From Methylibium sp. NZG (lineage in GTDB: Bacteria > Pseudomonadota > Gammaproteobacteria > Burkholderiales > Burkholderiaceae_C), in assembly GCA_001263235.1 (NCBI GenBank), contig LGRD01000036.1:1-64000 (forward strand): a stretch of 64,000 bases of DNA, given 5' to 3'. A model generated the notes under the pieces. It worked only from the letters and a program-made list of their open reading frames with translations. It ran no database searches and was not told the origin of the DNA. Numbering within the stretch: the first letter of the stretch is position 1; the number at the start of each line of letters is the position of its first letter. Made by a program: the position numbers and the translations under genes. Shown here in pieces: positions 2,296 through 45,809 of the stretch.

Positions 2296-2982
2296 TCATC
2301 GCGCCGCCTCTGGCTTCACCCCACCGGTGACCACGGCGATGCGTCGGCGCAGGCGATCGGCTTCCGTCGCTTCGCCAGCGGCCTCGGCGCGCTGCACCTG
2401 AACGTTCAGCCACGCCAGCAGCGGCCGGCTCCAGCCCTGGCTCGATGCGGTCTCGGCCGCCAGTGCGAACAGCGGCGGCTGCGCGCGCCCGCTGCGCAGC
2501 AGCACGCCCGCGGCGACGAGGCGCGACACCGGATCGGCAATGGCGGCGAGCGACTGACCGGAGCCACCCCCCGCGAGCGCACTGCGTTGCGCTTCCGGCA
2601 GCAGCGCTGCGTCCTGCGGGGTGGCGGTGCCAGCCAGATACGCCGCGTACGCCCGCTCGGCAGGCGGCGCGTCTTGAACCAGCGCGGCAAAGCCGGGGCA
2701 GTCGTCGAACACCAGGCTCGCCACGCGCGCGGCGCAGCGCGTCAGCTCGGCCCGCGCGAGCAGGTCGGTGCGGCCGGTGCGGGCGATCTCGGCGCGCGCA
2801 CGGTTGAACTCCAGCGCTTCGAGGCGGCTGTTGCCGGCCAGGTAAGCAGCGGTCGCACGTTCGAGCGAGGCCTTGGCGTTCATCTGCCAGTCGGGTGGCG
2901 GTGGGGCGCTGGAGCAGGCGGCCAGCAAGGCCAGCGCGACGGCCGCGAGTGCGCGCGCGCAGACGCATGCGACGGCGCTCAC
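2296..2982 (-). CDS. Predicted lipoprotein of the MCE cluster, helical
   Basis: 228 residues if started at the GTG at 2982, which has a good Shine-Dalgarno (GGAGGG, 7-base spacing) and directly precedes a hydrophobic signal (ALAAVALALLAAC, lipobox LAAC). The longer GTG start at 3006 is less likely. The mature part is Ala-rich and predicted helical, with no domain I recognise. The usual MCE partner lipoprotein is an ABC-type auxiliary family (PF03886), but I do not see its motifs. Position suggests an outer-membrane lipoprotein working with the MlaD-like protein. Its start overlaps by 4 bases the stop of a mini-ORF within the tandem 62-bp repeats, so its translation is probably coupled to the upstream genes. 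Confidence 0.7.
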   Translation of the reverse strand: MSAVACVCARALAAVALALLAACSSAPPPPDWQMNAKASLERATAAYLAGNSRLEALEFNRARAEIARTGRTDLLARAELTRCAARVASLVFDDCPGFAALVQDAPPAERAYAAYLAGTATPQDAALLPEAQRSALAGGGSGQSLAAIADPVSRLVAAGVLLRSGRAQPPLFALAAETASSQGWSRPLLAWLNVQVQRAEAAGEATEADRLRRRIAVVTGGVKPEAAR

Positions 2983-3044
2983 GGGACTGCCCTCCGTGCT
3001 TCGCACTGCGGGATGAGCGCTTGGGAGCGGCCCGGCGCGTTCAC
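2979..3044 (-). CDS. Translationally coupled 21-codon mini-ORF, copy b
   Basis: A GTG start at 3044 with GGAGGG seven bases upstream opens 21 codons (MNAPGRSQALIPQCEARRAV plus P) and ends in TGA at 2981-2979. The first two bases of that TGA are the last two of the lipoprotein's GTG, giving a 4-base GTGA overlap. It is the downstream member of a tandem duplicated unit. All five residue differences from copy a are substitutions and no synonymous change exists. The peptide itself is therefore probably not selected, and the ORF may serve to carry ribosomes across an inserted repeat. Confidence 0.4.
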   Translation of the reverse strand: MNAPGRSQALIPQCEARRAVP

Positions 3045-3107
3045 TGGACTACCCTCCGTGCTTCGCACTGCGGGGTGAGCGCTAGGGAGCGGCCCGGCGC
3101 GCTCATG
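2984..3107 (-). repeat. Tandem duplication of a 62-bp unit carrying SD, start codon and mini-ORF
   Basis: Units at 2984-3045 and 3046-3107 agree at 56 of 62 positions by my alignment. Each contains the palindrome GTGCTTCGCAC and, on the minus strand, GGAGGG followed seven bases later by a start codon in the next unit. The unit length of 62 equals 21 codons plus a stop minus the 4-base overlap, which is why coupling survives duplication. The unit resembles interspersed repeats that I associate with some Burkholderiales, but this is recollection. Confidence 0.9.
3041..3106 (-). CDS. Translationally coupled 21-codon mini-ORF, copy a
   Basis: An ATG at 3106 overlaps the TGA of the MlaD-like gene (ATGA, 3103-3106). 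It opens 21 codons (MSAPGRSLALTPQCEARRVV plus Q) and ends in TGA at 3043-3041, which in turn overlaps the GTG of copy b. Each junction has the same 4-base overlap and each downstream start has the same GGAGGG. The chain MlaD-like gene, mini-ORF a, mini-ORF b, lipoprotein is thus gap-free. No similarity to known leader peptides is seen. Confidence 0.4.
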   Translation of the reverse strand: MSAPGRSLALTPQCEARRVVQ

Positions 3108-4140
3108 GCAACTTGATCTCCGTCTCGCGCGCGAACGGCCATTTGCGGTTCACCTCGTTGACCAGTTGCTCGACCTTGCGCAGGCTCGCCTCGACCTCGG
3201 CACGCAGCGAGCCGAGGTCGGTGGTGGCCTCGCGCGTGTTGGTGGCGATGCCTTGGGCCTCCACCAGCAGCGCGTCGACCTTCTGCAGGCTCTTGCGCGC
3301 GTCGCCGAGCAGGCCGTTCAACTGCTGCACGGTGGCCTGCGTGTCCTTCATCACACCGGCGTCGCCGAAGATCTGCGTGTCGGCGCGGCCGACCATGCCG
3401 TCGGTCTTCAGCGCCAGGCCGTCGATGCGGCGCACCAGGCCGTCCAGGCGCTTCATCAACGCATTGGCCTGGTCGAGCGTGGCCGCTATCTTCTTCGAGT
3501 CCTTCTCGTCGCCCATGATCACGCCGAGCGCGCCACGCGGGCTGTTCAGCGTCTCGGTGGTCGTCTGCACATTGCGCAGCGTGTTGTTGAGCGGCGCGTC
3601 GCTGGCGGTCATCATGGTCAGGTTGGCGAGCAGGTCGCGCACGCTGGCCATCAGCTTGGGGATCTCGGCCGCGGCATCGCCGCTGAGCAGCTTGCGCACC
3701 GCGCCGTCCTTCAGCGGCGGGTCGGTCAGCACGCCGGTGAAGGCGCGAATCTTCGGCGCGCCGACGAGGCCGCTTTCCATCGTGAACACGCTCGACTCGC
3801 GCAGCCAGTGCGCGTCCTTGACGGCCACGTCGACGACGATGCGTGCGTTGCCTTCGTCCGACAGCTCGATGCGGCCGATGCGCCCGATCGGAAAGCCCGC
3901 AAACGTCATGTCCATGCCGACGACCACGCCCTCGGAGTTGTCGGCCACCAGCACCAGCGTCTGCTTGCGCTCGAACAGGCCGCGCGCGTACATCACGTAA
4001 GCGGCCGACGCGGCGATCAGCAGCAGCACGCACCACAGCAGCACGCGCGCCTTCAGCTCCAGGTGGGCCACGGGCGGGCTGTCTCGGGGCGGGCTGTCGC
4101 GGGCGGAGACGTCTTCGAAGCGGGGCGGGTCGGTGGCCAT
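3103..4140 (-). CDS. MCE/MlaD family lipid-transport protein
   Basis: 345 residues. After a cytoplasmic, Asp/Pro-rich N-terminus there is one membrane segment (residues about 32-52, LLWCVLLLIAASAAYVMYA). An MCE domain follows (about 58-150), with VVVGMDMTFAGFPIGRIGRIEL and a beta-barrel pattern, and then a long helical region rich in amphipathic repeats (about 160-330), typical of the periplasm-spanning needle of MlaD/PqiB-like proteins. It should bind and move lipids between inner and outer membrane as an oligomer. The permease gene lies immediately upstream (24-base gap) and a lipoprotein follows. No ATP-binding subunit is encoded nearby. Its stop overlaps the first mini-ORF. Confidence 0.88.
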   Translation of the reverse strand: MATDPPRFEDVSARDSPPRDSPPVAHLELKARVLLWCVLLLIAASAAYVMYARGLFERKQTLVLVADNSEGVVVGMDMTFAGFPIGRIGRIELSDEGNARIVVDVAVKDAHWLRESSVFTMESGLVGAPKIRAFTGVLTDPPLKDGAVRKLLSGDAAAEIPKLMASVRDLLANLTMMTASDAPLNNTLRNVQTTTETLNSPRGALGVIMGDEKDSKKIAATLDQANALMKRLDGLVRRIDGLALKTDGMVGRADTQIFGDAGVMKDTQATVQQLNGLLGDARKSLQKVDALLVEAQGIATNTREATTDLGSLRAEVEASLRKVEQLVNEVNRKWPFARETEIKLP

Positions 4141-13285: not shown

Positions 13286-13352
<67 letters not shown>

Positions 13353-39564: not shown

Positions 39565-41823
39565 TCACCGCTCGCCGAACACCACCCCCTCGCTGAGCAC
39601 CAGGCCTTCGCTCAACACCAGCCCCTCGCTCAACACCAGGCCTTCGCTGAGCACCAGGCCTTCACTCAGCACCAGGCCTTCGCTGAGAACGAGGCCCTCG
39701 CTCAACACCAGGCCCTCGCTGAGCACCAGCCCGTTGCCCAGCACCAGGCCGCTGCCGCTCGACAGCCAGCCCGACAGCGTCGTGGTGGGAATGAACGCCC
39801 CGGTCTTGCCGATGAAGGAACTGGCGCCTGCCATTGCGTTGGCGCTGATCACGCCAGCAGTCAGCAACACCTGGTTCGGCGCCGCCACATCGGTGAACGA
39901 CTTGACGAACCGGTTGGCAACGATGCCCGTGCCCGACCAATACACCGGCACGCGTTTGCGCACCACGCCGCTGGCCCAGGTCAGGCGCGGGTCCCAGATC
40001 GGCTGGTACTTGGTGAACAGCGCCGGGCCGCTGAGCACGTGCGAGCCGCCAGCAAACACCATACGCGACCAGTTGAACGCCGCCCCGTTGACAGTGGATG
40101 TGGCTGCCGGCATGGCCTTGCCGGTGGCCAGCATCGACGCGCCGACGGCAATGCTGCCGGCGTTGACGACCGTGCCCAGGTCGGTGCGCAGCACCTTGGC
40201 CAGCTTCACCGCACCGTCCACGTTGAGCAAGCCGGCGCCTTGCTGCAGCAGGTTGGTGTTGGGCAGCGGCTGTGCGGTGTACTGCAGGATGGCCTTGATG
40301 AGCGGCGGCGTGAGGCCCGGGTTGGCCTGCAGTATCAGCGCCACGGCGCCGGCCACTGCGGGGGCCGAGATCGACGTGCCGCTCATCAGCATCTGCGTTT
40401 CGCCGTAAACCTGCGTGATGCCCACCGGCGTCACCAGGTTGTTGTAGAACGTTTTGGCCAACAGGTTCCACTCCGGAACGGCAACGTAGGCGCGGGTGGC
40501 GGCTGCGCCCACGATTTTGTTGCCTGGGGCCACCAGGTCGGGCTTGAGCAGGTTGTCCACGCGACGCACGCCGCTGGCGTCGACATAGGCGCCACGGGTC
40601 GGCCCGCGCGAGCTGAACATGTTCACGATGTCGTCGCTGCGGGCGACCGTGCTGTTGAAGTTGGCCGCACCGACGGTGATGACCGACGGGTCGTTGCCCG
40701 GCGAGCTGATGCGCCCGTAGACCTCCTTGCCCAGCAGGTTCTTGCCGAAGTTGCCCGCCGCCACCACCACGGTGATGCCGGCCGCTGTGGCGCTGCGCAC
40801 GGCCACGCACAGCGGGTCGGTCTGCCAGGTCTCGGTCGAATCGGTCGCCAGGCTCAGGTTGAGCACGCGGATGTTGTATGCCTTGGCGTGGTAAATCGCC
40901 CACTGGATGCCCTCCAGCGCATCGCTGACGGTGCCGAAGCCCAGGCCATTGAGCACCTTGACGTCGTAGATGTTGGCGTTGGGCGCGACACCGGTGGTGT
41001 CTGGCGTGCCAGGGCCATAGAACTTGGCACGCCCGGCGGCGACCGAGGCCACGTGGGTGCCGTGGCCATACGCATCGTGGATATCGGAAGCGTCGGCGGC
41101 AATCGCGTTCTCGTAGGTCGCAAGCGCCGCGCTGCCCGGCATCAGCGACGTGGCGCCGCCGGTGGGCGTGACCCAGTTCTGCACGCTGTTGTTCAGCATG
41201 TTCACGTTGCGCTTGACGCGGTAGCCGGCGGTCGAGTCGGCAAACGCCCAGTGCTCGCGCATGACGCCGGAGTCGAGCACGGCAATGCCGACGCCGGTGC
41301 CGTCCAGGCCGAGGTAGTTCGTCTTGGTGCTGCCGGTGCGCACGGCGCTGGTGAGCGACCCGGTGATCGACTCCAGCGCGCTTGCGGTGCGGTGCGTGTC
41401 GCGGTTGGGCGAGACGCTGACGACATCGTCGCGCGCGGCGAGTGCCTTTGCGTGCCGGGCCTTGATCTGCACCGTCATCGCGTGCACCGCCGGGTGAACT
41501 GCGAGCACGGTGCCGCCGATGCGCTCGACATGCGCACGCAACTCGGTCATCGAGGGGTCGGGCGAATCGCTGACGATGATCGCCTGGATGTGGCGCACGC
41601 CGCCCACATCACGAGCCCAGCGGGCTCGCGGCTTGCGGTGCTCGGTCGCCTCTTCGTCCAGGTCGCGCGACACCTTGTGATCCTTGTGTGGCCGGTCGCC
41701 GAACGGGCGTGCCTGCACCGGCTGCAGCCCCAGGCTCGCGATCAGCAGCAGCAGCATCAACACCATGGCGTTGCGCCAGCGGCGGCGCTCGATCAGGACG
41801 ATGAAGGGGATCAGAAGGTTCAT
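39565..41823 (-). CDS. S8 (subtilisin-like) serine peptidase with LVLSEG hexapeptide repeat tail
   Basis: 752 residues from the ATG at 41823 (GGAG eight bases upstream). A signal anchor (MVLMLLLLIASLGLQPVQA) precedes an inhibitor-I9-like prodomain (about 60-125). The catalytic triad is complete: Asp in GVGIAVLDSGV, His in DAYGHGTHVASVAAG and Ser in LMSGTSISAPAVAGA. After a beta-rich region (about 500-680) the protein ends in eight consecutive LVLSEG hexapeptides (VVFGER at the very end), each encoded by an 18-base repeat. It is predicted secreted and self-processing. The tail may be a secretion, surface-attachment or assembly signal. Confidence 0.9.
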   Translation of the reverse strand: MNLLIPFIVLIERRRWRNAMVLMLLLLIASLGLQPVQARPFGDRPHKDHKVSRDLDEEATEHRKPRARWARDVGGVRHIQAIIVSDSPDPSMTELRAHVERIGGTVLAVHPAVHAMTVQIKARHAKALAARDDVVSVSPNRDTHRTASALESITGSLTSAVRTGSTKTNYLGLDGTGVGIAVLDSGVMREHWAFADSTAGYRVKRNVNMLNNSVQNWVTPTGGATSLMPGSAALATYENAIAADASDIHDAYGHGTHVASVAAGRAKFYGPGTPDTTGVAPNANIYDVKVLNGLGFGTVSDALEGIQWAIYHAKAYNIRVLNLSLATDSTETWQTDPLCVAVRSATAAGITVVVAAGNFGKNLLGKEVYGRISSPGNDPSVITVGAANFNSTVARSDDIVNMFSSRGPTRGAYVDASGVRRVDNLLKPDLVAPGNKIVGAAATRAYVAVPEWNLLAKTFYNNLVTPVGITQVYGETQMLMSGTSISAPAVAGAVALILQANPGLTPPLIKAILQYTAQPLPNTNLLQQGAGLLNVDGAVKLAKVLRTDLGTVVNAGSIAVGASMLATGKAMPAATSTVNGAAFNWSRMVFAGGSHVLSGPALFTKYQPIWDPRLTWASGVVRKRVPVYWSGTGIVANRFVKSFTDVAAPNQVLLTAGVISANAMAGASSFIGKTGAFIPTTTLSGWLSSGSGLVLGNGLVLSEGLVLSEGLVLSEGLVLSEGLVLSEGLVLSEGLVLSEGLVLSEGVVFGER
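39580..39741 (-). repeat. Nine tandem 18-base repeats in the 3' end of the subtilase gene
   Basis: Units such as CACCAGGCCTTCGCTGAG (plus-strand reading) repeat nine times with only third-position or near-silent changes. Eight encode LSEG-LV or LSEG-VV and the outermost one (39724-39741) encodes LGNG-LV. The mostly synonymous divergence implies selection for the hexapeptide, and the count could vary between strains. Confidence 0.95.
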
Positions 41824-44978: not shown

Positions 44979-45809
44979 CTACGGAGCGGCGGCGAGGTCC
45001 GCCAAGGCGACCGGCGCCGCCGCGGGCCGCTTGCTGCGCAGGTAGCGGATCAGCCGGCCTTTGTAGGCCTGGCCGTCGGGCAGCCGAACCACCTTCTGCT
45101 CGCTGTATGCGAACCCGAACCGCTCCATTTGCCGCGTGAAGGCGTTGCGGTTGCCGCGGTCGGGGTCGGCGATGAGCACCTCCATCGCCTCGGCGGAGTG
45201 CGCCTCGATGAAGCGCGCCAGCGCCTCGGGCTGCTGGCGTTCGTACAGCACGTCGCTGCCGATGATGAGGTCGAACTGGCCGAGTTCGCCGCCAGCGGCA
45301 TCCCAATCGCTCGTGACGAAACGCAGCGGCGCCAGCCCGTTGAGGCGCAGGTTGTCGCGCAAGAAGCGGCCCGCCAGCGGGTGCTTGTCGCTCGCGGTGA
45401 TGTTGCCGCCGCGACGCTGCATCACCAGGCTGGCCAGCGCCAGGCCGCAGCCAACTTCGAGCACGCGCCGGCCGCCGAGCGGGATGCCGAGCATCGCCTC
45501 GGCCAGCACCTTCGACGACGGCCAGACCATGCCGAACAGCGGCCAGTCGGTGTCGGTGATGCCGGCGCGCGCCGCGCTGCCGGTCGGGTCGCTGAATTGC
45601 TGGCGGTCGAGCAGTGAGCAGATTTGCAGCGGCACGCCTCCGACCGACAGGGTTTCGACCTTGACCTGGTAGCCCACGTCGGCACCGGGTTCGTCGCACG
45701 ACTCGGGGCCAGGCTCTGCACCGGGCTCTGCACCAGGCGCTGCACCAGGCGCTGCACCAGGCGCTGCACCAGGCGCTGCACCCGACGCGGCCGGTGTCCC
45801 CGCTGTCAT
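44979..45809 (-). CDS. Class I SAM-dependent methyltransferase with AAPG repeat N-terminus
   Basis: 276 residues. The first 45 residues are low complexity with AAPG/AEPG tetrapeptide repeats encoded by a 12-base repeat. The catalytic domain includes RRVLEVGCGLALASLVMQRR (SAM motif I), FVTSDWDA and FDLIIGSDVLYERQQPEALA, close to the METTL21/FAM86-like methyltransferases that modify protein lysines in eukaryotes and have bacterial relatives. Its ATG overlaps the TGA of the upstream dioxygenase gene (ATGA, 45806-45809), so the two enzymes are made together. The substrate is unknown. Confidence 0.85.
   Translation of the reverse strand: MTAGTPAASGAAPGAAPGAAPGAAPGAEPGAEPGPESCDEPGADVGYQVKVETLSVGGVPLQICSLLDRQQFSDPTGSAARAGITDTDWPLFGMVWPSSKVLAEAMLGIPLGGRRVLEVGCGLALASLVMQRRGGNITASDKHPLAGRFLRDNLRLNGLAPLRFVTSDWDAAGGELGQFDLIIGSDVLYERQQPEALARFIEAHSAEAMEVLIADPDRGNRNAFTRQMERFGFAYSEQKVVRLPDGQAYKGRLIRYLRSKRPAAAPVALADLAAAP
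45706..45780 (-). repeat. 12-base tandem repeats encoding the methyltransferase N-terminus
   Basis: About six consecutive units of the type GCGCTGCACCAG or GGCTCTGCACCG encode AAPG or AEPG. The innermost four are identical. Expansion or contraction by 12 bases keeps the reading frame. Confidence 0.85.

Follow-up and report, generated by a model that had tools for sequence, protein, structure and literature searches.

Short, probably translated repeats bridge overlapping operon genes in Methylibium sp. NZG and related bacteria

We analyzed a 64,000-nucleotide stretch of DNA from Methylibium sp. NZG (assembly GCA_001263235.1, contig LGRD01000036.1, positions 1 to 64,000; referred to as the window). 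On its minus strand, a gene encoding an MlaD-family protein is separated from a gene for a putative lipoprotein by two adjacent 62-bp units. The features of this junction are as follows.

3103..4140, minus strand: upstream gene, MlaD/MCE-family protein of 345 aa (Pfam MlaD, E 3.8e-07, above cut-off); its stop TGA is 3103-3105
3041..3106, minus strand: mini-ORF 1 (21 codons plus stop); its ATG overlaps the MlaD stop and its TGA overlaps the next GTG
3045..3106, minus strand: repeat unit 1 (62 bp, from ATGA to just before GTGA); 96.2 bits with the covariance model R1 described below
2979..3044, minus strand: mini-ORF 2 (21 codons plus stop); its TGA overlaps the lipoprotein GTG
2983..3044, minus strand: repeat unit 2 (62 bp); 91.2 bits with R1
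3076..3105, minus strand: hairpin 1 of unit 1 (stem TGAGCGC/GCGCTCA, loop with GCCGGGCCGCTCCC)
3014..3043, minus strand: hairpin 1 of unit 2
3052..3057, minus strand: GGAGGG, Shine-Dalgarno-like, 7 nt before the GTG at 3044
2990..2995, minus strand: GGAGGG, 7 nt before the GTG at 2982
2296..2982, minus strand: downstream gene, putative lipoprotein (start GTG 2982-2980, LAAC motif; no Pfam or NCBIfam family above cut-off)

The original prediction had described two 62-bp units that encode two 21-codon mini-ORFs with overlapping stops and starts, and this observation was confirmed in its details. Positions 2984-3045 and 3046-3107 agree at 56 of 62 positions, and Tandem Repeats Finder scores the array 227. 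The stop and start codons overlap by four bases at all three junctions (ATGA 3103-3106, GTGA 3041-3044, GTGA 2979-2982), the mini-ORFs read MSAPGRSLALTPQCEARRVVQ and VNAPGRSQALIPQCEARRAVP, each followed by a stop, and GGAGGG ends 7 nt before each GTG. The six differences between the units are, as had been stated, one start-codon change and five non-synonymous changes. However, the emphasis placed on the lack of synonymous changes has no weight because, over 94 distinct 62-bp units, single-base differences from the consensus are 251 non-synonymous and 133 synonymous (1.9) against 121 and 50 possible (2.4). The repeat is more than a chance resemblance, as a 20-nt core occurs twice in the window against 0.05 expected with up to 3 mismatches. 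Other tandem repeats in the window are an 18-bp unit at 39571-39750 (10 copies, about 80% matches), a 12-bp unit at 45709-45782 (6.2 copies, 95% matches) and a tetranucleotide AGCC repeat at 13287-13351 (14.8 copies, 96% matches).

We wondered whether the two units represent a one-off local duplication in this operon, as their adjacency and 62-bp period might suggest. A DNA search of the same genome with a 69-nt query gave 7 places covering at least 60 of its bases at 90-99% identity, two of them the window's own, as well as many 20-nt matches that belong to a second element. All seven places have RTGA at the 5' end and NTGA at the 3' end. A covariance model (R1) built from eight copies of this genome, of which one is a 60-bp relative, gave 21 hits at E <= 0.01 in the own genome, hits in 13 of 23 other genomes of the family and hits in 0 of 16 genomes from other families of the order. 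In 399 genomes of the same family-level group, 178 have a hit at E <= 1e-6, in 81 of 141 genera, with only 13 candidates scored per genome. Of 200 genomes drawn from the order, 9 have hits, 6 of them in other families with one or two copies, and of 185 genomes drawn from the class, 2 have hits, both in the family of the window. Tandem arrays of two or more units occur in several genomes. Phage records gave no match. With copies dispersed on other contigs and in many genera, local duplication is refuted for the unit itself, although the doubling at this junction may still be local. In Variovorax paradoxus VAI-C, a 65-bp unit fills exactly the space between the annotated end of one branched-chain amino acid permease and the annotated GTG start of the next. 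R1 gave only one weak match on 80 MlaD loci from named genomes, a hairpin element in a Hydrogenophaga contig (E 0.0041), so that the one named carrier of a clear unit rests on a single plasmid-collection record. Altogether, the unit belongs to a dispersed family.

Next, we examined the position and frame of the units relative to their neighbouring genes. R1 searches yielded 199 matches, of which 3 shorter than 45 nt were dropped; the remaining 196 formed 182 junctions, 173 after removal of identical contexts, although a few repeats of one junction may remain. The sample is not random, comprising the own genome, 13 relatives, three genomes chosen for many copies (designated G113, G337 and G064) and the top loci of the survey of 399 genomes; the first of the two sets of loci that were searched held 79 loci, near-duplicates having been left out, and cmsearch drops one of two overlapping tandem units, so tandems are under-counted. 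TGA is at the unit start in 152 junctions, and in 133 of these a same-strand ORF of at least 80 codons ends exactly there, against 115 of 560 TGAs in the preceding 60-400 nt. In 108 junctions an upstream ORF of at least 80 codons ends at the unit start and an ORF of at least 60 codons starts at its end, and 107 of them have an unbroken path in the frame of that start, the exception (locus L108) beginning with CTG. The other 65 lack one or both genes at the detected unit ends: 12 have such a path from another nearby start (119 of 173 over all), 25 have the upstream gene but no long ORF at the detected end (many are tandem arrays, and the window itself is one because the next ORF is the second mini-ORF), 15 have only the downstream gene and 13 neither. 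Of 125 long downstream ORFs, 123 start at NTGA and 68 at NTGAGC, against 2.4% of 502 ORF starts in a rough background set, suggesting that the first bases of the unit recur at its end.

As a control, we altered 96 single-unit junctions with both genes in silico. All 96 have the path as they stand, 12 keep it after deletion of one base from the unit and 84 after deletion of two, whereas on average 84.0 keep it when the interior is shuffled at the same length and 56.8 (maximum 66 in 20 runs) when it is shuffled with random length. Thus, it is length that matters most, and avoidance of stops adds little in this GC-rich DNA. A looser trace, which accepts any path to an ORF of at least 60 codons, was passed by 143 of 173 junctions but proved permissive, as 66 of 96 pass it after a one-base deletion. 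Among 144 units with both ends intact, length mod 3 is 2 in 120 (53, 56, 59, 62, 65, 98), consistent with a stop-start hand-over, 0 in 21 (60, 63, 66, 69, 72), which gives an in-frame N-terminal extension, and 1 in 3; two of the 120 have an internal stop. Copies share descent, so these counts are not independent trials. Of the three exceptions, one is a 24-bit match (L080) and a likely false positive, and the other two belong to a triple array of 61-bp units in G064 (L263), where one 41-codon ORF runs through two units (122 = 2 mod 3) to a GTGA and the ORF of the third unit ends one base before the GTG of the gene. In another genome (G068), an array of 60 + 60 + 62 bp gives one 61-codon ORF ending in GTGA.

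We next looked at the corresponding sites in related genomes. MlaD homologues were collected from 80 named genomes, and in 80 of 80 the MlaD stop lies in an NTGA (71 ATGA, 9 GTGA). In 79 the overlapping ORF is in frame with the lipoprotein, and the eightieth (L192) has a five-codon ORF, VTQLP, with overlaps at both ends. Several of these loci carry other inserts at the same ATGA/GTGA junction. At L128, L129, L131, L134, L139, L141, L142, L145-L147, L149, L154, L166 and L186, mostly Hydrogenophaga, a different insert (e.g. ...CCCCCTCAAGGGGG...) is read in frame as an N-terminal extension of the lipoprotein, L130 and L140 carry yet another one, and L169 has a type-A-like hairpin element (see below) of 78 bp, in frame. 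For KorA-KorB, where the own genome has a type A element, 8 of 11 relatives have a plain ATGA, one (L337) a seven-codon ORF and two no overlap. No repeat unit was recognised in the tiny relay ORFs of L192 and L337, so stop-start relays may also arise another way. For an ABC-2 ATPase-permease pair, where the own genome has a unit of the family described above (type B), 18 of 29 relatives fetched have a plain ATGA read in frame, 3 more have ATGA but our trace lost the frame, 3 carry inserts that keep continuity (L343 type B, L348 type A, L352 another element) and 5 show no overlap or could not be resolved. Insertion is shown by these empty sites; a mobilising enzyme was not looked for. NTGA is found at both ends of a unit where relatives have one NTGA, which fits a 4-nt target-site duplication but is also required by function, and this observation does not discriminate between the two.

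The shared 20-nt core led us to a second, structurally related element, type A, which consists of hairpins followed by GAGGGG and often ATGA. Its model R2 finds the unit of the window weakly (E 0.0039), so the two look related. In 150 genomes of the family, 40 have type A at E <= 1e-6. In the own genome 30 matches were traced with the permissive criterion: 10 reach the next gene through a mini-ORF, 9 by in-frame extension, 8 have an upstream stop but no continuity and 3 have no long upstream ORF. With a fixed rule for both genes, 13 of 30 own matches and 16 of 31 matches in relatives could be scored, and length mod 3 is 2 in 26 of 29, 0 in 2 and 1 in 1; 25 of 29 are continuous. The spacer before the element is 2 mod 3 in 13 of 15 copies with a 78-nt element and 1 mod 3 in 7 of 8 with a 79-nt element. 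The peptide through the repeat therefore changes (AERRAAPKPAR or GPSAGPLPSRP) while the stop-start overlap stays, although part of the spacer may belong to the element, so that this too is partly by descent. Three type A elements of the own genome (L220, L223, L232) are 105-108 nt, longer than the usual 77-79, apparently with a small extra insert, and still end in an exact ATGA overlap.

We then asked what is conserved within the units. Open frames of fixed length with a start and a Shine-Dalgarno-like motif could point to functional micropeptides. However, codon positions vary alike (mean entropy 0.73, 0.85, 0.83), the substitution pattern given above is close to neutral, type A copies are read in different frames, and no Pfam or NCBIfam match was found. 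We consider this explanation very unlikely. The Shine-Dalgarno-like motif is present in 122 of 141 distinct units, 7 or 8 nt before the start in 111. Alternatively, a cis-acting RNA hairpin (regulator or mRNA stabiliser) might be what is selected, with the mini-ORF being incidental. Indeed, changes on both sides occur in 8 of 11 pairs of type B and 16 of 26 of type A, no shuffle of 500 reaching either, though both alignments were fitted to the structure and two outer pairs of hairpin 1 fail in about half of type B copies. An alignment-free test agrees (mean paired run 5.84 against 5.28, sd 0.06, with partners exchanged). In contrast, on the sense strand the single units of the window fold no better than shuffles (139 and 91 of 200 shuffles as good), and Rfam 15 gave 0 matches at E <= 1 in window 2800-3300 and in 6 loci with elements, and a known Rfam element was rejected. 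Structure alone leaves the length rule and the frame compensation unexplained, and we regard this explanation as unlikely.

ASCERTAINMENT. Since R1 contains the ends of the unit, an end-blind 21-nt pattern was run on four genomes. It gave 49 matches in three of them, none in G337 although R1 finds 18 there, and 0 for the reversed control. By our comparison 46 of 49 are R1 hits. Of the other three, one is a diverged copy that still bridges two genes through a 36-codon ORF ending in GTGA, one appears to lie in coding sequence, and one follows a gene end without coupling. These data bear on the possibility that the units are ordinary selfish REP/MITE-like repeats that land in many places, of which only copies that happen not to break translation survive inside operons, so that coupling would be a passive filter rather than a property of the element. 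Many copies per genome (45, 18 and 15 at E <= 1e-4 in G113, G337 and G064), tandem growth, the occupation of the same junction by several different inserts, the one end-blind match without coupling and the uncoupled type A copies speak for this idea. On the other hand, type B ends coincide with the stop and start themselves (133 of 152 at the 5' end, 123 of 125 long downstream ORFs), and the end-blind comparison indicates that few copies lie elsewhere. This explanation is possible, but less likely than not.

The original prediction had inferred that the repeat is a portable coupling cassette that can duplicate or insert inside an operon without breaking translation, its length being a whole mini-ORF minus the overlap. 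It had named in advance a distribution mostly outside operons, or disrupted overlaps in relatives, as evidence against this idea; when relatives were examined, neither pattern was found, and orthologous empty sites are mostly plain NTGA overlaps. Our analysis thus supports the interpretation and broadens it, with the qualification that a minority of units work as in-frame extensions. We therefore favour, with reasonable confidence, the view that the two units are a tandem pair of a short interspersed repeat adapted to operon junctions where the upstream stop and the downstream start overlap by four bases. Each unit begins at the NTGA of the upstream stop, has a long-looped hairpin, a small hairpin and a Shine-Dalgarno-like GGAGG, and ends at another NTGA that is the next start. 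The sequences themselves demonstrate that units sit where relatives have a bare overlap, that the overlap is present at both unit ends and that unit length keeps reading continuity. What we infer from this, and what position and frame strongly suggest, is that a ribosome finishing the upstream gene reinitiates on the mini-ORF, reads it, terminates on the next start codon and reinitiates there, so that coupling, and protection from polarity, would survive an insertion of about 60-200 nt; neither ribosome occupancy nor expression was measured, nor was it tested whether the elements are selected for coupling or only tolerated, or how they spread. In this view the peptide does not matter, the repeat can insert and multiply because it is transparent to translation, and its hairpins may tune downstream output. 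Published reporter work found that about 20 nt between genes almost abolishes coupling in E. coli and Haloferax (PMC10666635), so a 62-bp insert without a relay ORF should uncouple the pair. Protection from Rho-dependent polarity is a further possible benefit.

If this view is right, repeats have a way to colonise the inside of operons without uncoupling the genes. It also offers natural experiments on termination-reinitiation, with the same gene pair joined by a bare ATGA in one species and by one to several relay mini-ORFs in others. Frame compensation in type A copies suggests that continuous translation between operon genes is itself under selection, whatever the peptide. In practice, the units blur gene starts and intergenic distances in annotation, and in-frame versions would add repeat-derived N-termini. 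More speculatively, and less likely than not, these repeats might represent a class of short mobile elements whose native insertion site is the four-base overlap between two operon genes: insertion would duplicate the NTGA, so that each copy arrives with a start overlapping the upstream stop and a stop overlapping the downstream start. Several repeat families (type B, type A and at least one more) would then share, or have converged on, this translation-transparent design, and tandem growth, mini-ORF length and hairpins would act as an evolvable dial on gene-to-gene coupling within operons.

We compared the units with known systems, and found no description of them in the literature, although the search covered open-licence PMC papers only and absence from print is not established. 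REP elements are likewise dispersed hairpin repeats but are extragenic and untranslated, and are associated with a RAYT transposase, for which no search was made here. Bacterial MITEs such as Chunjie are short repeats of non-coding size with many copies that are found within operons; Chunjie is 178-235 bp according to a review, and no relay ORF at gene overlaps is described in the text consulted. With regard to terminal inverted repeats, no inverted pair of >=15 nt spans our units and shorter ones were not searched, which leaves this criterion undecided, and membership in MITE or REP families is not established. Rickettsia palindromic elements (PMC10969869) are short repeats that keep a reading frame open on insertion. 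They lie inside ORFs and encode a conserved peptide, whereas the units lie at gene junctions, 120 of 144 end in a separate ORF with 21 of 144 being in-frame extensions, the peptide is not conserved and most units end in a stop that overlaps the next start, so that the definition of Rickettsia palindromic elements does not apply. Another close parallel is translational coupling by termination-reinitiation at 4-nt gene overlaps (Huber et al., 2019, PMC6728339; 2023, PMC10666635), which shares the ATGA/GTGA overlaps, a Shine-Dalgarno-like motif inside the upstream ORF and, in the published reporters, a loss of coupling with distance. The overlap of stop and next start is present at all three junctions of the window; dependence of downstream on upstream translation was not assayed. 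In the published systems the two genes overlap directly, while here a short interspersed repeat supplies one or more relay ORFs between them.
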